Shown here: positions 18,578-26,762 of the stretch, one piece after another | How the letters are laid out: each line of letters begins with the position of its first letter | Position numbering within the stretch: the first letter of the stretch is position 1 | DNA from: Alphaproteobacteria bacterium | GTDB lineage: Bacteria; Pseudomonadota; Alphaproteobacteria; SMXQ01 | Length of the DNA stretch: 52,884 nt | Direction of reading: 5' to 3' | NCBI GenBank assembly: GCA_009380075.1 | Contig: WHSO01000017.1 | Coordinates: forward strand, 1-52,884 | Position numbers and translations under genes: made by a program | Notes under the pieces: model-generated | What the model was told of the DNA's origin: nothing | Databases searched by the model: none | The model's input: only the letters and a program-made list of their open reading frames with translations

Positions 18578-19969
18578 ATGTCGGCCAATTTCGCGGCGCT
18601 CGCCTATCTGCTGGCTTCCGTCCTGTTCATCATGGCGCTGCGCGGGCTCTCCAGCCCGGTCACCGCGCGCAAGGGCAATATCTACGGCATCGCCGGCATG
18701 ACCATCGCGGTCGCCACCACGGTGGCCACGCCCGGCGTGTTGTCCTATCCGGAGATCGGTGCCGCCATCCTCATCGGCGGGCTGGTCGGCGGCGTCATCG
18801 CCCGGCGCATCCAGATGGCGGCCATGCCGCAGCTCGTCGCCGCCTTCCATTCGCTGGTCGGCATGGCGGCGGTGCTGGTGGCGGCGGCAGCCTTCTACAA
18901 CCCCGCCGCCTACGGCATCGTCGATGCGGGCGGCGTGCTCAAGCTCGCCAGCCGGATCGAGATGTCGCTGGGCGTCGTCATCGGCGCGATCACGTTCTCG
19001 GGCTCCGTCGTCGCCTTTGCCAAGCTGCAGGGGCTGGTGTCGGGCAACCCCGTCGTCTTCCCCGGGCAGCATCTCCTCAACCTGCTGATCGGCGTCGCCA
19101 TCGTCGCGCTGATCGTGATGTTCGGACTCGACGTCAGCCCGACGTGGTTCTGGCTGATGACGGCGCTCGCCTTCGTCGTCGGTTTCACTCTGATCATCCC
19201 CATCGGCGGCGCCGACATGCCGGTGGTGATCTCGATGCTGAATTCCTATTCCGGCTGGGCCGCGGCGGGCATCGGCTTCACGCTGGAGAACACGGCGCTG
19301 ATCGTCACCGGCGCGCTGGTGGGCTCGTCCGGCGCGATCCTCAGCTACATCATGTGCAAGGGTATGAACCGCTCGCTGTTCAACGTCGTCCTCGGAGGCT
19401 TCGGCGGCGAGGCCGACGCCGGCGCCGCCAAACGTGCGGGCGACCGGCCGGTCAAGGCGGGCTCCGCCGACGATGCCGCCTTCATCATGAAGAACGCCGG
19501 CAAGGTCATCATCGTGCCCGGCTACGGCATGGCGGTGGCCCAGGCCCAGCATGCGCTGCGCGAGATGGCGGACAAGCTCAAGGCCGAGGGGGTGGATGTG
19601 ACCTACGCCATCCATCCGGTGGCGGGGCGCATGCCGGGGCACATGAACGTGCTGCTGGCGGAGGCCAACGTGCCCTACGACGAGGTGTTCGAGCTGGAGG
19701 CGATCAACTCCGCCTTCCAGACCACCGACGTCGCCTTCGTCATCGGCGCCAACGACGTCACCAACCCCGCCGCCCGCGACGACCCGCAGAGCCCGATCTA
19801 CGGTATGCCCATCCTCGACGTCGACAAGGCGAAGACGGTGCTGTTCGTCAAGCGGTCCCTGGCACCGGGCTACGCCGGCGTCGACAACGACCTGTTCTAC
19901 CGCGACAACACCATGATGCTGTTCGCCGACGCCAAGGAAATGTGCGAGGGGATAGTGAAGGCGCTGTAG
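18578..19969 (+). CDS. pntB: NAD(P) transhydrogenase beta subunit PntB
   Basis: Membrane plus NADP(H)-binding subunit, 463 aa. The N-terminal half has about nine hydrophobic helices. The soluble domain III is marked by KVIIVPGYGMAVAQAQH, YAIHPVAGRMPGHMNVLLAEANVPYD, and FVIGANDVTNPAARDDP with the conserved GMPILDVDKAKTV. Last gene of the pntAA-pntAB-pntB operon. Right of its stop, base composition changes abruptly to the lower-GC island. Confidence 0.96.
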   Translation: MSANFAALAYLLASVLFIMALRGLSSPVTARKGNIYGIAGMTIAVATTVATPGVLSYPEIGAAILIGGLVGGVIARRIQMAAMPQLVAAFHSLVGMAAVLVAAAAFYNPAAYGIVDAGGVLKLASRIEMSLGVVIGAITFSGSVVAFAKLQGLVSGNPVVFPGQHLLNLLIGVAIVALIVMFGLDVSPTWFWLMTALAFVVGFTLIIPIGGADMPVVISMLNSYSGWAAAGIGFTLENTALIVTGALVGSSGAILSYIMCKGMNRSLFNVVLGGFGGEADAGAAKRAGDRPVKAGSADDAAFIMKNAGKVIIVPGYGMAVAQAQHALREMADKLKAEGVDVTYAIHPVAGRMPGHMNVLLAEANVPYDEVFELEAINSAFQTTDVAFVIGANDVTNPAARDDPQSPIYGMPILDVDKAKTVLFVKRSLAPGYAGVDNDLFYRDNTMMLFADAKEMCEGIVKAL

Positions 19970-20064: not shown

Positions 20065-22182
20065 ATGCTTGAAAATACTTTCATTCATCTGCCGGGAGTA
20101 GGCAGAGTCCGTGAAAGAGAATATTGGGCGCAAGGCATTCGTTCGTGGAATGACCTAGAAGCAAACCTTTCGTCCAGTCCGCCGCTGTTCCCAGATCAGC
20201 AACTCCATCCCCTCCTCGGCGAAATAGCGCGCTCTCGAGAAGCGTTGCTCAGCGGCAATATTGCGTACTTTGCGCAGCGATTGCCGAGATCCGAACACTA
20301 CAGGATTGCCTTGTCTGTTCCGGAGAGCACGCTCTTTCTGGATATAGAGACGACTGGCCTTAGCACGTATTACGACCACATCACGTTGGTCGGTGGGAGT
20401 GTGGGATCAGGGTACATCTGTTATTTAACTGCAACACATAAAGCGAAAATAAAATCACTATTGGAAAGCGCAAAGTGCCTCGTCACCTTTAATGGGTCGC
20501 TTTTCGATCTCAAGTTTTTGCTAAAAGAGTTGCCAGCGGTTCAACTGCCGCAAGCGCACGTCGACCTACGCTTTCTTGCTGCCCGACTGGGTTATCGGGG
20601 AGGACAAAAGGAAATCGAAAGAATTTTCCAGATAAGAAGATCCTCAGATGTCAGTGAAGTCCAAGGTGAACTTGCGCCCGTACTCTGGCATGAGTACCAG
20701 CTTGGGAATCGTGAAAGTGCCAAGAAACTGGTTCTGTATAACCAGTATGATGTTCTTGGAATGAGGCCCATTCTTGATAAATTGATTCAAGAGCTCATTG
20801 CCAAAGAGGGCCTTCCACTGCCCTCCGAACAGATACCGAGATTCACTCAGACACCCAAGAAGCTCTCCTGGACAACGAAACGCCACGAAGACCCAATCCA
20901 CCGAATATATCTCCCCAAAAAGATCGGCGGCGGGAAACCAAAAGTACACTTCAAAGATCTTACACCCCAAGAGATGGGGCGGAAGCTACGGTTCGTAGGC
21001 ATCGACTTGACGGGCTCGGAATCGCGGCCCACGGGCTGGTGCTTTCTGAACGGTAGTCACGCAATGACGAAGCTCTTGTCGTCTGACGAAGATATCCTTG
21101 TTCAGTCTCTTATCGTAAAGCCCGATGTGGTTTCGATCGATTCACCACTCTCGCTTCCTAAGGGCCGACTTTCGGTCAAGGATGAAGATCCCGGCCGCGT
21201 TGAGTTCGGGATAATGCGCCAGTGTGAGAGGGAATTAAAGAGGCGCGGCGTCAACGTCTATCCTGCCCTCATTCCAAGCATGCAGAACCTCACCGCGAGA
21301 GGCATGCATCTCGCCAATCGGTTTCGTGCGATGGGAGTCCCAGTAATTGAGAGCTATCCTGGCGCAGCGCAGGATATCATGGGCTTGCCGCGAAAACGCG
21401 CGAGCCTGGCACAACTGAAAAACGGCTTGGCTGCGTTCGGCCTATCAGGCGACTTTGTGTGTGAAATGGTTTCGCACGATGAGGTCGATGCCGTCACCGC
21501 CGCCGTCGTAGGTCTTTTTTTCTGGGCGGGGAAATTTGAGGCACTGGGAAGCGAGATTGAGGATTACCTCATCATTCCGGATTTGGAAGTTTCCAACGAA
21601 AGGTGGATGAAAAGAATCGTCATTGGAATAAGCGGTCCGATAGCAGCGGGTAAAACTACTGCCGCCCGGCTTTTGGAAACCAAAGGTTTTGCAAACGCAC
21701 GCTTTAGTGCCGTCCTTGAGGAACTACTGAAGGAAAGGCGGGCGATTGTCACACGCAAGTCACTCCAGGCTATTGGTGAGGAGATCAACAAGAACCCGGG
21801 ACAAAGATGGTTGGCAAAAAAACTCGCCCACTACCACGGTGATGCCACGATGATCGTAATCGATGGACTTCGCCATCCCGAAGATCATGCGAGTATGGTG
21901 GAGTGCTTTGGGCCACGATTCTTTCATGTTCATTTGTCGGTTGCGGAAAATACCCGCCGCAGAAGGTACCGGGCCATGCACAGATCGGTTCGGGAGTTCG
22001 ATCGGGCAATTACCCATCCAGTGGAGGCCAAGGTGGAATATCTTGCCGTTCTGGCCCCGGAACTTATTGAAAATGAAGGAACTATCGAGCAGTTCCGCCG
22101 CCGGCTCGATCGGTTCCTTTCCCAAACGAAGAGAGATATAAAGGTTGTAGACAGGAAAAGGGAGATAAGCAGGTGCCGGTAA
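20065..22182 (+). CDS. Three-domain fusion: YprB-like exonuclease, DUF429, P-loop nucleotide kinase
   Basis: A 705-aa protein. Residues 1-250 resemble the YprB/RNase H-like 3'-5' exonuclease family: a helix-hairpin-helix-like start (HLPGVGRVREREYW), motif I FLDIETTGL (Asp93, Glu95), motif II TFNGSLFDLKFL (Asp148) and motif III LYNQYDV (Asp229). Residues 308-505 look like DUF429, an RNase H-like fold: FVGIDLTGS, VVSIDSPLSLP, VIESYPGAAQDIMG and HDEVDAVTAA. Residues 515-690 carry a P-loop kinase with Walker A GPIAAGKTT (524-532) and FHVHLSVAENTRRRRYR, like phage dNMP kinases or dephospho-CoA kinase. No Shine-Dalgarno is obvious at the ATG. The gene overlaps the purZ-like start by 10 bp, implying coupling. 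Domain names come from motif recognition; the combined function is not known to me. Confidence 0.85.
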   Translation: MLENTFIHLPGVGRVREREYWAQGIRSWNDLEANLSSSPPLFPDQQLHPLLGEIARSREALLSGNIAYFAQRLPRSEHYRIALSVPESTLFLDIETTGLSTYYDHITLVGGSVGSGYICYLTATHKAKIKSLLESAKCLVTFNGSLFDLKFLLKELPAVQLPQAHVDLRFLAARLGYRGGQKEIERIFQIRRSSDVSEVQGELAPVLWHEYQLGNRESAKKLVLYNQYDVLGMRPILDKLIQELIAKEGLPLPSEQIPRFTQTPKKLSWTTKRHEDPIHRIYLPKKIGGGKPKVHFKDLTPQEMGRKLRFVGIDLTGSESRPTGWCFLNGSHAMTKLLSSDEDILVQSLIVKPDVVSIDSPLSLPKGRLSVKDEDPGRVEFGIMRQCERELKRRGVNVYPALIPSMQNLTARGMHLANRFRAMGVPVIESYPGAAQDIMGLPRKRASLAQLKNGLAAFGLSGDFVCEMVSHDEVDAVTAAVVGLFFWAGKFEALGSEIEDYLIIPDLEVSNERWMKRIVIGISGPIAAGKTTAARLLETKGFANARFSAVLEELLKERRAIVTRKSLQAIGEEINKNPGQRWLAKKLAHYHGDATMIVIDGLRHPEDHASMVECFGPRFFHVHLSVAENTRRRRYRAMHRSVREFDRAITHPVEAKVEYLAVLAPELIENEGTIEQFRRRLDRFLSQTKRDIKVVDRKREISRCR

Positions 22183-23093
22183 CAATTGTCGTCGGTGGTC
22201 AGTTCGGTTCCGAAGGCAAGGGAAAGGTTGCCTGTGCAATCGCTCGGGAGCATAGCGGTACTATTGCGGTTAGGGTGGGTGGTTCAAATTCCGGCCATAC
22301 AGTTATTGACGAACGTGGCAAGGTACGAGCGTTCCGTCAGCTTCCCACGGCGGCAATTCTGCCAGATACCACATGCGTAATCGCAGCAGGGTCCTATATC
22401 GAAGCGGATGTTCTTTCGGATGAAATTCGTCAAACCGGTCTTACACCGGACCGACTTGTAATTGATGCCGATGCGGTTCTGATTTCGGAACGTCACCGAA
22501 AACAGGAAAGAAACGCGGGTCTCAAAGAAAAAATTGGATCGACAGGTAGCGGTACCGGCGCTGCGGTCATCGATAGGGTCAGTCGAGTTGGTACGGTATC
22601 GTTTGTTCGGGATGATAAGAGGTTTTCACCATATGTTGGTTGCGCACGCAGTTTCCTTCGTCGCCAGCTGAAGAACGAGCGACAACATGTAATTATTGAG
22701 GGAACCCAAGGATTTGGCCTATCTCTCCTTCACTCCGGTCATTATCCGAATGTGACGAGCCGTGATACAACCGCAGCGGGATTCCTGTCTGAAACAGGGC
22801 TCGGGCCGACGGATGTGAATAAAGTTGTACTTGTCATTCGGGCTTTTCCTATTCGCGTAGCTGGAAACTCCGGCCCAATTCCAGATGAAATTGATTGGGA
22901 CACGATTACGCGCGAAAGTGGCTCTCCCCATGATCTTGAAGAAAGGACGACAGTTACCGGACATGTGCGTCGCGTAGCTCGCTTTAACGCTGATATTGTC
23001 AAAGCCGCAATCGAAGCCAACGCGCCAACGAAGATCGTGCTTAACTATCGGTGCGTTTCAAGGAATAGACGCCTTAAATACCCGAACGATTGA
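22173..23093 (+). CDS. purZ: PurZ-like adenylosuccinate synthetase homologue, likely 3' frameshifted
   Basis: GTG start at 22173 with GGGAG about 8 bp upstream, inside the end of the previous gene. The N-terminus IVVGGQFGSEGKGKVA matches the PurA P-loop, but the catalytic Asp of GDEGKGK is Ser13. His42 of GHT is kept, while the preceding GGHNAGH pattern is GGSNSGH. IEGTQGFGLSLLHSGHYPNVTSRDTTAAG and PIRVAGNSGPIPDE follow the PurA core. Recalled knowledge: Asp-to-Ser here characterises phage PurZ, which joins Asp to dGMP on the route to 2-aminoadenine. After KIVLNY (about residue 292) the frame runs 14 unconserved residues to a stop, while coding-like sequence continues in another frame to 23322. 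This is certainly a PurA-superfamily protein; the PurZ function is inference. Confidence 0.8.
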   Translation: MPVTIVVGGQFGSEGKGKVACAIAREHSGTIAVRVGGSNSGHTVIDERGKVRAFRQLPTAAILPDTTCVIAAGSYIEADVLSDEIRQTGLTPDRLVIDADAVLISERHRKQERNAGLKEKIGSTGSGTGAAVIDRVSRVGTVSFVRDDKRFSPYVGCARSFLRRQLKNERQHVIIEGTQGFGLSLLHSGHYPNVTSRDTTAAGFLSETGLGPTDVNKVVLVIRAFPIRVAGNSGPIPDEIDWDTITRESGSPHDLEERTTVTGHVRRVARFNADIVKAAIEANAPTKIVLNYRCVSRNRRLKYPND

Positions 23094-23322
23094 AACTAAT
23101 CGTGCAGATATAGAGGCCGCTAAGGCGATTCAAGAAAGGAACATAGCTCTGGGCGAGATCAAAGCAGCGCTTGCACTGGACCGTCAGCGTTCTGCAGAAT
23201 CAAAGCGCTTATCAGATGCTCTCGACCAACTCTCGCGCGAAGTAAAAGAACTACAGTTAAAGTTAGAGGCGCTGCGCAGTACACCAGCACGGCAAGTTCG
23301 TCCCAAAAAAACTAGTCAGTAG
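22996..23322 (+). CDS. Out-of-frame continuation of the PurZ-like protein (coiled coil) or small overlapping ORF
   Basis: This frame is unlikely to be an independent gene at its first part, which overlaps purZ in another frame. From about 23055 it reads GAFQGIDALNTRTIETN and then a heptad-rich coiled coil (ADIEAAKAIQERNIALGEIKAA...LDQLSREVKELQLKLEALRS) to 23322. Deleting one base near 23054 in the purZ frame would join KIVLNY directly to this segment and give a protein of about 381 aa. I favour a frameshift mutation or a sequence error. No slippery heptamer is visible, so programmed frameshifting is less likely. Confidence 0.4.
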   Translation: MSKPQSKPTRQRRSCLTIGAFQGIDALNTRTIETNRADIEAAKAIQERNIALGEIKAALALDRQRSAESKRLSDALDQLSREVKELQLKLEALRSTPARQVRPKKTSQ

Positions 23323-23771
23323 ATGCAGTGGATAAACCTATGCGCATCGAAATCTGCGGTGGCATTGCTTCGGGCAAAACCACCCTTGCGAGATGCCTCG
23401 ATGATGCTGGTTTTGCAGCCTATTTTGAAAACTTCCAGTCCAATCCATTTTGGAAATTGTTTTATGAGAATCCTGGACGTTACGCATTTGAAACCGAGAT
23501 AACATTTTTTCTCCAACACTATAGCCAGTTCAGGGATGCGCAAGATGCCAACGCTGACCATGTCGTGTGCGATTCTTCCCTATTACAGGATGTCGCATAC
23601 GCAAACGTGAATTTGGCCGGACCTTGTCTTGCCGCTTTTACTGCTGTTGCGAATGCTGCGCAGGGATTGCTCGGGCCACCAGCGCTTGTTGTGCATTTGA
23701 CATGCAGTGCGGAAGAAGAATTGCGACGCATTCGGGCGCGAGCAAGAGATGAGGAACGCGGAATACAAACG

Positions 23772-23779
23772 TCCTATCT
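23772..23779. repeat. Left 8-bp target-site duplication (TCCTATCT)
   Basis: TCCTATCT directly precedes the left inverted repeat and is repeated at 26041-26048 directly after the right one. Eight base pairs is the usual duplication size for IS1595-family elements. Confidence 0.95.
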
Positions 23780-23802
23780 GGGAACTATCCGGTTGACGTA
23801 CC
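23780..23802. repeat. IS left inverted repeat (IRL)
   Basis: Twenty-three bases starting GGGAACTATCCGG and ending TTGACGTACC, the exact reverse complement of 26018-26040. The match ends at 23802. Confidence 0.95.
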
Positions 23803-23847
23803 AAGGATAGGATTGTAGAATGGCTTCATAATCAAAGGATGAAGCCG

Positions 23848-24777
23848 ATGAATACCAAAGTTGACCTGACCAATCCCATCTACCACGACAACGACGCGGC
23901 GCGGGAACACCTCGAAACCATCTTGTGGCCCGATGGCCCTGTCTGCCCGCGCTGTGGCGTCATGGGCGACAGGATCACCAAGCTACAGGGCAAGTCCACC
24001 CGCCCCGGCGTCTACAAGTGCAAGGATTGCCGCAAGCCGTTCTCCGTCACGGTTGGGACGGTCATGGAGCGGTCCAAGGTGCCCTTGTGCAAATGGGTTA
24101 TGGCCGCTCAACTCATGGCGTCCAGCAAGAAGGGCATGAGTGCCCTTCAGCTTAAGCGCATGATCGGCACGAACTACGAAACCGCGTGGTTCCTGTTCCA
24201 CCGTTTGAGGGAATGCGCCATCGATCCGAAGCGCGGCCCCATCGGCGGTCAGAACAAGGTGGTTGAGGTTGACGAAACCTATGTCGGCGGCAAGGCAAAG
24301 AACGCCAAGCGCGGCAAGCCCATCCCCAAGAAACACGCGGTTGTCTCACTGGTGGAACGAGATGGCGAAGTGCGCTCGTTTCACGTTACCAACGTCAACT
24401 CCAAAACCCTTCGGCCCATCATCGTCAAGAATGCCAGCCGCAAGTCCTATCTCATGACCGATGAAAGCGTTGTCTATCCCAAGATCGGGAGTGAGTTTTC
24501 AGGACACGGAACGGTCAATCACAGCGCCGAAGAATATGTCCGTGGCGTCTTTTGGTACACGAACACGGTTGAAAGCTACTTTGCCCTTTTGAAGCGCGGA
24601 ATGATGGGCTCATTCCACAGCGTTTCAGAAGCGCACTTGTACCGCTACCTCGCGGAATTCGATTTCCGGCACAACACCCGCAAGATGTCCGATGCAGAAC
24701 GCGGCGATGAATTGTTGAAGGGCGCCGCGGGCAAGCGGCTCATGTACCATCAACCTCGTGAAGCCGCGAACGTCTAA
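23848..24777 (+). CDS. IS1595-family (ISXO2-like) transposase
   Basis: DDE-type transposase of about 309 aa. An N-terminal zinc ribbon is visible: CPRCGVMGDRI...CKDCRKPFSVTVGTVMERSKVPL. The catalytic domain starts at VEVDETYVGGKAKN and continues to VYPKIGSEF...GTVNHSAEEYVRG and NTVESYFALLKRGMMGSFHSVS, with the terminal YLAEFDFRHNTR. The ATG at 23848 has AGGA about 9 bp upstream; an in-frame ATG at 23839 overlaps that site. The gene appears intact, so the element may still be mobile. Confidence 0.95.
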   Translation: MNTKVDLTNPIYHDNDAAREHLETILWPDGPVCPRCGVMGDRITKLQGKSTRPGVYKCKDCRKPFSVTVGTVMERSKVPLCKWVMAAQLMASSKKGMSALQLKRMIGTNYETAWFLFHRLRECAIDPKRGPIGGQNKVVEVDETYVGGKAKNAKRGKPIPKKHAVVSLVERDGEVRSFHVTNVNSKTLRPIIVKNASRKSYLMTDESVVYPKIGSEFSGHGTVNHSAEEYVRGVFWYTNTVESYFALLKRGMMGSFHSVSEAHLYRYLAEFDFRHNTRKMSDAERGDELLKGAAGKRLMYHQPREAANV

Positions 24778-24891
24778 GCAGAAGGCGAAGGCTTTCCTGC
24801 GCTGGCGTCACCGTTCTTAACAAGCTGCCATTCAGCGCCCAAACGTTCCGCATACCATAACTCCAACGGACGATCAGGGAGAGTATTTGTC

Positions 24892-25194
24892 ATGGCTAGC
24901 AACGCACCCGGTGGGAATACCCCCGTTGCATTTATTGATAACCCGCACGCTCCAGATGTTTTTGCGGACGCCTGCACGGGCGTCTTTTTGTGGAACGGAA
25001 ACATAAGGCTCACCTTCGAATCGGATAGAGTGAATCACGCAACCAGCCCCGGCCCGATAAACAGGGTTGTGATCGGCAGATTAGTCATGCCCGTAGTGGC
25101 GGCTCAGGAGATGATCAAAATGTTGCAAGGATTCATTGAACAGCAGCAGCAAGCCCCCAATGCACCGCCGCAAGCAACCGGGACGGTCCACTAA
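24892..25194 (+). CDS. IS cargo protein, possibly DUF3467-like
   Basis: A 100-aa ORF inside the IS, 114 bp after the transposase. Sequence such as GVFLWNGNIRLTFESDRVN...NRVVIGRLVMPVVAAQEMIKMLQGFIEQQQQ recalls DUF3467-type proteins, with a shared beta-rich core and an amphipathic C-terminal helix; this link is tentative. The ATG has AGGGAGA about 10 bp upstream. A strong hairpin follows directly after its stop. Function unknown; it is inside the inverted repeats and travels with the element. Confidence 0.65.
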   Translation: MASNAPGGNTPVAFIDNPHAPDVFADACTGVFLWNGNIRLTFESDRVNHATSPGPINRVVIGRLVMPVVAAQEMIKMLQGFIEQQQQAPNAPPQATGTVH

Positions 25195-25195
25195 C

Positions 25196-25229
25196 AAAAA
25201 CCCCGGCTTACTTGGCCGGGGTCTTTCTC
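25196..25229 (+). terminator. Terminator after the IS cargo gene
   Basis: CCCCGGC (25201-25207), short loop, then GGCCGGGG and a T-rich tail (TCTTTCTCTTT). It follows the 100-aa cargo ORF. It also overlaps the end of the opposing 51-aa ORF. Confidence 0.65.
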
Positions 25230-25363
25230 TTTGATGTCTTGCGTTTGGACGTTGCGCTTTTCTCCCGCTCCCGCTTGGGGCGCGGTTGAGGGGGCGTTTT
25301 CAGCAAGCGCAACAGCAACTCGTCGCGCTCGCGTTCTGCTTTGTTCGATTTAGGCTCTTTCAT
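25208..25363 (-). CDS. Small basic IS cargo ORF (51 aa)
   Basis: Reading from ATG 25363: MKEPKSNKAERERDELLLRL, then a Lys/Arg/Pro/Thr-rich tail ending KTSKRKTPAK. It is highly basic and could bind nucleic acid, but composition is the only evidence. No Shine-Dalgarno is visible. It is divergent from the 160-aa cargo ORF starting at 25378. Confidence 0.4.
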   Translation of the reverse strand: MKEPKSNKAERERDELLLRLLKTPPQPRPKREREKSATSKRKTSKRKTPAK

Positions 25364-25377
25364 AGGGGGAAATTACC

Positions 25378-25860
25378 ATGAGAGACCAGCGATCTCAAAA
25401 CATCGCTCCCTACATGGAAGCGGTCGGGCTCGTCTCTGCTGTTTGGGCTCATCTAGAACTCAATTTTGACATGATAATTGCAAATCTTACCGGAGGCGAC
25501 GCAGAGGCCGTAGGCTGTATAACGATGCAGTTCGGCTCCTACTATCCAAAGCTGAGCGCAATAATCGCGTTATGCAAATACAGGGGTGTTTCAAAACCGA
25601 TCATTGAAGAATTGAAAACCATGCGCGGCCAACTCGCGGACCCAGCCGAAAGGCGCAACCGCCTCATTCACGATGCCTGGCTCATAAAAGGAGGCCACGT
25701 GACCGGGAAAGCCTCCCACAAAGTTAGACCCGCGAGGGACCAAACGCTCACAGAATGCGAATCATTAAGGCGGGCAATAAACAAATTCGCCCTGAAAACA
25801 ATCCGTTTGAGGCAAGAAATCAAGCGCGAGCTTGCAACATCCTCACAAACGTGTCCCTAA
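25378..25860 (+). CDS. Hypothetical IS cargo protein (160 aa)
   Basis: ORF within the IS, starting MRDQRSQNIAPYMEAVGLVSAVWAHLELNFDMIIANLTGGD. Predicted mostly helical, with a conserved-looking RNRLIHDAW segment near residue 98, resembling the R-x4-6-H motif of HEPN-like proteins (RNRLIH). HEPN membership is a guess from that motif and the helical character. GGGGGAAATT precedes the ATG. It is not required for transposition in known IS1595 elements; role unknown. Confidence 0.6.
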   Translation: MRDQRSQNIAPYMEAVGLVSAVWAHLELNFDMIIANLTGGDAEAVGCITMQFGSYYPKLSAIIALCKYRGVSKPIIEELKTMRGQLADPAERRNRLIHDAWLIKGGHVTGKASHKVRPARDQTLTECESLRRAINKFALKTIRLRQEIKRELATSSQTCP

Positions 25861-26017
25861 CCGCTTCGCGCCACGTCTCCATAGACGGCCCACCATAATC
25901 TGGCGTCATGTAGATATCGTGCTTAAGTAGTTCAGAAACGCCCGCCTCGATCATCTCAGGCGTAACCTCGGAAACCGCGACGTTCGCAACCGTTTCAGGG
26001 TGTACAGTCTGGCTCAT
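25820..26017 (-). CDS. Small IS cargo protein (65 aa) starting at the right inverted repeat
   Basis: MSQTVHPETVANVAVSEVTPEMIEAGVSELLKHD...MARA-type C-terminus (FVRMLQARA). The ATG lies directly against the right inverted repeat (26018), so its promoter or leader would be inside the repeat or supplied by flanking DNA. The ITPEMIEAG-like phrase is familiar from small phage or IS hypothetical proteins; no function known. It overlaps the 3' end of the 160-aa ORF on the opposite strand. Confidence 0.5.
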   Translation of the reverse strand: MSQTVHPETVANVAVSEVTPEMIEAGVSELLKHDIYMTPDYGGPSMETWREAVRDTFVRMLQARA

Positions 26018-26040
26018 GGTACGTCAACCGGATAGTTCCC
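26018..26040. repeat. IS right inverted repeat (IRR)
   Basis: Twenty-three bases, GGTACGTCAACC...ATAGTTCCC, exact reverse complement of the left repeat at 23780-23802. Confidence 0.95.
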
Positions 26041-26048
26041 TCCTATCT
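26041..26048. repeat. Right 8-bp target-site duplication (TCCTATCT)
   Basis: Second copy of TCCTATCT, directly after the right inverted repeat. Sequence from 26049 continues the reading frame of the interrupted kinase. Confidence 0.95.
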
Positions 26049-26219
26049 AGCCAGTATCAACACAGCGATCATTGACAATTTGGGCATGTATGGGGCTGCC
26101 ACAAAATGCATCGATATTGACAGTCAGGAGTTTAATTTCGCCCACAACGAAGCGCATAAGGCCGCCGTCGTCGAAAAAGTAAAATCGACGCTCACGCGTT
26201 AGGGATATAATCCACCATC

Positions 26220-26291: not shown

Positions 26292-26495
26292 CTAGTACCC
26301 CTCGCGCTCCATGCGCTTGCGCAGGAGCTTGCGGTAGCGGCGGACCGCTTCCGCTTTCTCGCGGGCGCGCTTCTCCGAGGGTTTCTCGTAATTGCGGCGC
26401 ATCTTCATTTCGCGGTAGATGCCCTCGCGCTGCATCTTCTTCTTCAGCGCGCGAAGGGCCTGATCGACGTTGTTGTCCTTGACGGTGACCTGCAC
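26292..26495 (-). CDS. rpsU: 30S ribosomal protein S21
   Basis: S21 of the small subunit, 67 aa, beginning with GTG at 26495 ([21 protein letters not shown]). GGAAGG lies about 10 bp upstream. The basic C-terminus [13 protein letters not shown] is typical of the alphaproteobacterial form. The frame is open far upstream but that part is a shadow of def. It is divergent from def and the COQ9-like gene, the arrangement that gave the family its rpsU-divergent name. Confidence 0.95.
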
Positions 26496-26762
26496 GGGTG
26501 TTCGACCTTCCTTCCCAGTGACGGCGATTCTCGGGGGCGGAAACACGCAAGTCTCCGCTGGAACGCGGGCTTTTAGCACCTTCGCGCCCGGTTGGGAAGG
26601 GTAAAGGCGGTGACAGGCCGGTGACAAACGCCCGGAATCCCCTGATTTTCGGCGTCCGCACCGGTTCCGGCGGCGGCGGGACGGCTCCCTGCGGGGCGTG
26701 GCGGTCGACGCAGGACGCCCCCGCCTCTTTACCTCCGCCGCGCCCGCGCCCATATTGCCGCC

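Follow-up and report, generated by a model that had tools for sequence, protein, structure and literature searches.

Genes and decay of the window copy

The stretch analyzed here, called the window throughout, comprises 52,884 nt of contig WHSO01000017.1 from an Alphaproteobacteria bacterium (assembly GCA_009380075.1), and all coordinates are positions in it. It carries a block of nucleotide-chemistry genes belonging to a cassette of bacteria and archaea whose central enzyme is related to PurZ, a synthetase described from phages (PMC12884076), which employ it to put 2-aminoadenine in the place of adenine in their DNA. The first gene (20065–22182, plus strand, 705 aa) is intact and encodes a fusion protein, P0001, composed, by Pfam and PHROG matches, of a DEDD-type exonuclease (RNase_H_2, PF13482, E 7e-24), an RNase H-like DUF429 domain whose match (E 8.5e-5) narrowly misses the Pfam cut-off, and a P-loop domain resembling nucleoside and deoxynucleoside monophosphate kinases. 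The second, P0002 (22173–23093, plus strand), is a 3′-truncated, PurZ-type homologue of adenylosuccinate synthetase (PurA). It matches the PurA/PurZ models at ~253 bits, starts with GTG inside the last 10 bp of the fusion gene, and has the motif GSEGKG where PurA has GDEGKG. The third, P0003, resembles deoxynucleoside kinases (dNK). Its 5′ part (23328–23779, plus strand; PF01712, E 2e-19; start GTG at 23328 or ATG at 23340) is 52% identical to the dNK of L016, a Rhodospirillales locus that among intact cassettes is most closely related to the window copy (in order: fusion protein 694 aa, PurZ 346 aa, dCTP-deaminase-fold (DCD-fold) protein 394 aa, dNK 197 aa).

An earlier note on this DNA had named these three families, and Pfam and model matches place each of them where it said. 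The window copy is decayed and only the fusion gene is whole, the PurZ-like gene being truncated and the dNK gene split. Compared with L016, the homology of P0002 stops near 23050, leaving ~50 C-terminal residues absent. The dNK gene is interrupted by an IS1595-type transposon of 2,261 bp (23780–26040, plus strand) with perfect 24-bp terminal inverted repeats (23780–23803 and 26017–26040) and an 8-bp target duplication, TCCTATCT, at 23772–23779 and 26041–26048. Behind the transposon, the 3′ part of the dNK gene (26041–26202, plus strand) aligns by tblastn to residues 147–197 of the L016 dNK (E 3e-4) and opens with the 8-bp target-site duplicate. The transposon encodes an IS1595/ISXO2-like transposase (23839–24777, plus strand; PF12762, E 1e-31, and PF12760) and two passenger open reading frames (ORFs) without a Pfam match, at 24892–25194 and 25378–25860.

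In L016, L017 and L018, the gene for the DCD-fold protein stands between PurZ and dNK. In the window, this position is occupied by an ORF ending at 23322 (23064–23322, plus strand), which is probably the coiled-coil tail of the lost DCD-fold membrane protein, judging by its composition and its place before the dNK gene. It gives no significant alignment to the DCD-fold protein, and tblastn does not find the N-terminal domain of that protein in the window. A frameshift in the window purZ was first suspected from the adjacent frame; the comparison with L016 better fits a deletion that took the end of PurZ and most of the DCD-fold gene. Alternatively, an assembly error in this metagenome-assembled genome (MAG) may be the source of the missing purZ end.

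The block lies between a pntB-like core gene (18578–19969, plus strand) and rpsU for ribosomal protein S21 (approximately 26292–26500, minus strand; identified by its S21 peptide and by relatives). Four genomes from its family have ~120–200 bp between pntB and rpsU, with def following; in the window the gap is ~6.3 kb. Because these relatives have an empty site, the block is an insertion. Its GC content (50–56% over 20–26 kb, against about 64–70% outside, or ~67% for the region) agrees with the lower-GC island between core genes that had been described. The island had also been said to hold no phage structural or integrase genes; no phage genes adjoin the cassette, but the island does contain the transposon. 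The fusion protein is absent from ten other genomes of the same order; across the class, 2 of 385 genomes have it, the window's own included.

A conserved cassette built around a PurZ-type synthetase

When ~85,000 species genomes were scanned with aligned PurZ-like proteins as the query, 399 relatives emerged, and the neighborhood counts below cover the best 80 of them (loci numbered with L), with partners counted by profile searches on six-frame translations. These loci share a recurrent operon in which the fusion protein is followed by the PurZ-type synthetase and a third gene, and in some cases by dNK, on one strand and commonly with overlaps. The third gene, for the DCD-fold protein, is found in 77 of the 80 loci, DUF429 in 71, the kinase in 67, the exonuclease in 63 and dNK in 27. 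None of these partners occurs in 13 ordinary purA control loci. In a reverse search from the fusion protein, through samples from the phylum and from another class, PurZ and the DCD-fold protein adjoin all six full-length matches outside the window, five of which come from genomes already in the 80-locus set. The co-occurrence far exceeds chance, and we regard the existence of a conserved cassette as practically beyond doubt. The earlier note had proposed such a co-occurrence search and named rare co-occurrence as the outcome that would tell against its idea; since the families form a conserved chromosomal module, that outcome did not arise. The three-family set stands as a module, but with dNK as an optional member, and the DCD-fold membrane protein had been missed.

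Carriers are found in Pseudomonadota, Cyanobacteriota, Thermodesulfobacteriota, Bacillota, Bacteroidota, Actinomycetota, Spirochaetota, Acidobacteriota, Lokiarchaeota and Halobacteria. Intact synthetases occur in Nitrosomonas halophila (L027) and in a Xenococcaceae genome (L018), and cultured carriers include Nostoc linckia z4 and Thalassolituus maritimus. The synthetase tree intermixes phyla, with a Lokiarchaeon as sister to a Peptococcaceae bacterium. This intermixing, the empty sites in relatives and the patchy distribution within the class indicate that the cassette moves horizontally. As in the window, insertions beside ordinary core genes are common among the loci. Two loci, L030 and L032, carry identical PurZ genes and neighbors in MAGs labeled Dehalococcoidia and Binatia; they reflect mis-binning or a very recent transfer and should count once.

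To place the synthetase, a maximum-likelihood tree was built from the 80 cassette synthetases, phage PurZ and PurZ0, PurA, archaeal short PurA and rhizobial fusions of a kinase to PurA. The cassette synthetases form a single clade (support 99/81), which groups with phage PurZ0 and PurZ (98/89), whereas PurA, archaeal short PurA and the separate rhizobial fusion lineage fall outside. Phage PurZ and PurZ0, the succino-2-amino-dAMP synthetases of phiVC8, S-2L and Arthrobacter and Gordonia phages, are therefore homologues of the same clade. Residues agree with this placement. At the position of PurA Asp13, the cassette enzymes have Ser in 73 and Gly in 6 of 79 (Ser in the window), phage PurZ has Ser in 9/9 and PurA has Asp in 16/16. 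At the position of T273 of S-2L, a PurZ-specific residue that contacts the substrate (PMC8342488), they have Thr in 74 and Ser in 5 of 80, compared with Thr in 9/9 phage PurZ and Gly in 16/16 PurA. A loop insertion, RVAG-NSGP, is common to PurZ0 and the cassette enzymes. The cassette synthetases differ from phage PurZ in being cellular, in forming their own clade and in having different partners, and they have Asp, like PurA, where S-2L has Q308. Only four cellular sequences, all archaeal, were placed in the PurZ group in a 2026 survey (PMC12884076).

We also considered whether the enzyme is the housekeeping PurA and rejected this, as a separate PurA is present in the window's own genome (C80) and a full-length one in 14 of 15 carrier genomes. 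The suspicion that the PurA homologue might prove ordinary in intact relatives is thus not borne out, since these have the PurZ-type residues and are distinct from housekeeping PurA. We think it probable that the cassette synthetase performs PurZ-type chemistry, and its ancestry and residues point to dGMP as the putative substrate.

A second lineage with Ser at Asp13 occurs on rhizobial and Methylobacterium plasmids (L006:7449-9741, L007:6802-11112, L009:6633-11265, L013 and L014). Here, a kinase is fused to the PurA-like enzyme, which has Gly at the T273 position, and the partners are an HD hydrolase, DUF7002 and a protein of ~460 aa that has no match in Pfam. Genes for AbiE, SIR2 and SbcCD adjoin the L007 copy, and a gene for a DUF87 protein also lies beside this lineage. 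This lineage looks like a sister system of the cassette. Another PurA-like gene, on Rhizobium leguminosarum plasmid pRL23b2 (L008:4395-15716), is clustered with genes for PurB, FolE, QueC, QueE, a QueD-like protein, an IMP-dehydrogenase-like protein and a phosphoribosyltransferase, a set that probably serves 7-deazapurine nucleoside biosynthesis.

Partner proteins of the synthetase

In the fusion protein, D93, E95, N143, D148, D229, D314, D359, D472, E473, D475, G529 and K530 are invariant across 50 relatives, so that the acidic residues of the exonuclease and the P-loop of the kinase are kept. In its AlphaFold2 (AF2) model (pLDDT 89.5), the exonuclease domain is closest to RNase D/NrnC and the kinase domain to the AMP-bound adenylate-kinase-related protein 3lw7 (TM-score 0.87 by target). 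DUF429 has been described as an RNase H-like fold and a predicted nuclease (PMC3985635). Seven loci of gut and related bacteria (L041, L042, L047, L049, L056, L068 and L073) have PolX-like HhH and PHP domains instead of the exonuclease before DUF429 and the kinase, giving fusion genes of 908–928 aa; the nuclease slot is retained with another fold. On a Dyadobacter chenhuakuii plasmid (L010:4432-6594), a DUF429 protein with 51% identity to that of the cassette stands alone, directly behind a gene annotated as diadenylate cyclase.

Other partners are less regular. A Lokiarchaeal cassette (L069) carries behind dNK a second, dedicated PurB, 29% identical to the other PurB; a PurZ-type reaction requires PurB as its next step. 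A PurB gene at L040 was also considered and left uncounted as probably the housekeeping copy. An HD hydrolase is present in 8 loci. A ~250-aa protein with the motifs YxGDVxDFxKYxxLR and FxDPDNGxE recurs in 18 loci (e.g., L015:11146-11916, L051:8235-9041 and L091:10042-10785), adjoining or separating the PurZ and DCD-fold genes and sometimes substituting for the fusion protein; the two members scanned have no Pfam, NCBIfam or PADLOC match.

The fourth gene encodes a protein with the dCTP-deaminase fold (PF22769; TIGR02274, 63 bits). Its AF2 model (pLDDT 85) matches 8y1w with a TM-score of 0.80 by target. Fold and sequence homology thus tie it to the dCTP deaminase/dUTPase family, which includes the anti-phage dCTP deaminases, but its active site is different. 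Glu138 is replaced by Pro in 73/73 proteins, Arg115 of the deaminase by His or Tyr in 72/73 and by Phe in one, and Ser111 is kept in a single protein of the 73, with Ile or Val in nearly all others. The RSS residues are also lost. A new set is invariant instead: R115, N117, P146 and N149, with D136 in 71/73 (L016 numbering). In addition, the protein has gained a coiled coil and, in 73/80, a transmembrane segment, mostly a single helix. Since the deaminase residues are replaced, it is no dCTP deaminase, and it could serve as a sensor of nucleotides or have another enzymatic specificity. A Dut-fold enzyme that hydrolyzes dATP and dGTP is found in all 98 PurZ0 phages (PMC12884076). The parallel to the DCD-fold protein is suggestive, although the residues give no proof of it.

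A possible role in conflict with phages

Taken together, the mobile cellular cassette of which the window holds a decayed copy may supply a PurZ-type purine deoxynucleotide for defense against phages or other mobile elements, a reading that we hold to be evenly balanced between right and wrong. Its product would most likely be 2-amino-dAMP (dZMP) and then dZTP. In the pathway we envisage, dGMP would come from dGTP via host enzymes or from deoxynucleosides re-phosphorylated by dNK. The PurZ-type enzyme would join it with aspartate to N6-succino-2-amino-dAMP, which PurB, from the host or, in one Lokiarchaeon, from the cassette, would convert to dZMP. Further phosphorylation of dZMP may fall to the kinase domain of the fusion protein, and the fused exonuclease and DUF429 domains, or the PolX-like PHP domain in their variant, would process DNA. 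The phage Z-cluster is toxic to E. coli when expressed there (PMC8342488), so a Z pathway in a cell should be conditional. The membrane-anchored DCD-fold protein would bind a nucleotide and either control the system or act as its effector; it most naturally suggests itself as the sensor, regulator or effector of such a conditional pathway. The idea of an antiviral nucleotide, raised in the earlier note, fits this scheme. We lean towards conflict with phages or mobile elements as the role of the cassette; that role, its trigger and the target of its nucleases are hypothetical. The stronger form, an undescribed immune system of bacteria and archaea that makes Z deoxynucleotides against phages and from whose lineage phage PurZ derived, is a tentative proposal and rather doubtful.

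The genomic context may lend some support. A type I methylase gene (HsdM) is present in 6 of 50 loci, where its density in the same genomes predicts 0.30; the six were kept after coordinate coincidences had been checked in the locus sequences, but the test was chosen post hoc, after the neighbors had been seen, and two of the loci (L078 and L079) are syntenic. The enrichment is therefore support for a defense context and not proof. Integrases recur in 8 loci and HipA in 3. A PADLOC scan of 145 flanking and 132 control genes returned 145 and 23 families, respectively, a difference inflated by near-identical type I specificity models, and we did not use it as a statistic.

Besides the limits of the methylase test, several points speak against the defense reading. 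Many loci have no visible defense gene nearby. No PADLOC system model covers the cassette, which gives only weak single-domain matches to the dCTPase kinase part, PDC-S44 and VakA. PurB is cassette-encoded in just 1 of 80 loci, and the neighbor-gene clusters contain no recurrent polymerase, though no genome search aimed at DpoZ was made. The DCD-fold protein, having lost Ser111 along with all the other deaminase-site residues, is perhaps no dNTPase. The NCBIfam PurZ model NF038379 scores 252.9 bits for the window and 260.4 for L016, below its 300-bit cut-off, which is probably why these genes are annotated as adenylosuccinate synthetase.

Other explanations account for parts of the same evidence. 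The PurZ-type enzyme and the kinases could make a signal nucleotide in second-messenger immunity, with the DCD-fold membrane protein as the receptor and effector that permeabilizes the membrane on binding. In nucleotide-gated effectors, the domain that binds the ligand is usually joined to a membrane segment, and a DCD fold with all deaminase residues replaced, a new invariant set, a transmembrane helix and a coiled coil resembles that layout. We nevertheless find this unlikely, as the cassette lacks a nucleotidyl cyclase or polymerizing enzyme, a monomeric signal would not need the kinase, dNK and nucleases, the membrane protein mostly has one helix, and it may still be catalytic. Slightly less likely is a nucleotide-pool or DNA-repair module without a phage-defense role, in which a PurA-like enzyme converts a damaged deoxypurine (dIMP or dXMP) and the nucleases remove damaged DNA. 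The exonuclease, PolX-like PHP domain, kinases and dUTPase-fold proteins are of repair or salvage types, and the frequent insertions beside ordinary core genes would suit it. However, the synthetase has the PurZ-type Ser and Thr instead of the Asp and Gly of IMP-using PurA, the patchy, transferred distribution and the empty site are unlike housekeeping repair, and the membrane anchor is left unexplained.

The cassette might also place 2-aminoadenine in host or plasmid DNA while its nucleases attack DNA without this base, as a base-replacement restriction. A PurZ-type enzyme with nucleases does resemble modification plus restriction, and ordinary polymerases accept dZTP (PMC8342488). Yet with neither a polymerase nor, in the standard cassette, a dATP-removing HD enzyme, little Z is expected, and Z-DNA production is toxic in E. 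coli; we consider this improbable. Least credible of all is the view that the cassette is left over from a nucleotide module of a Z-phage or prophage. The cassette synthetases are sister to phage PurZ, but they form their own clade with their own partners, no phage genes adjoin them, and the fusion protein is in no phage record. A viral scan with P0001 alone gave no match, and IMG/VR gave only two weak relatives of the exonuclease domain, with no viral contig that convincingly encodes the fusion protein, so we rejected this origin.

Among known systems, the cassette resembles the phage Z-clusters (purZ-datZ-mazZ and purZ0-dutZ-dmtZ), in which a PurZ-type enzyme also adjoins a Dut-fold protein, and some rhizobial variants have an HD-domain protein at a DatZ-like position. 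Unlike these clusters, the standard cassette has no DatZ/MazZ and, among its recurrent neighbors, no DpoZ polymerase, and it adds the nuclease/DUF429/kinase fusion, dNK and the membrane-anchored, deaminase-dead DCD protein. Prokaryotic viperins with their companion nucleotide kinases share the idea of an antiviral nucleotide with a dedicated kinase, VakA being the weak PADLOC match of the cassette dNK; their chemistry is unrelated, as the cassette has no radical-SAM enzyme. The remark in the earlier note that this is not a known system holds up, as no described system matches. The cassette is not described in the open literature searched for combinations of DUF429, PurZ and defense. As far as that literature shows, the central enzyme comes from a known family, and no counterpart of the entire module is known.

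PurZ-type genes of cells, named adenylosuccinate synthetase, run into the hundreds and stand in a fixed operon; Z-DNA chemistry thereby gains a candidate source among cells. Two further proteins, the membrane protein with its dead deaminase site and the nuclease fusion with DUF429, gain a context from the operon. It turns into a testable question whether cells make dZ nucleotides and use them against phages. If the cassette is a Z-nucleotide immune system from whose lineage phage PurZ derived, Z modification in phages would be a captured or shared chemistry of host defense.

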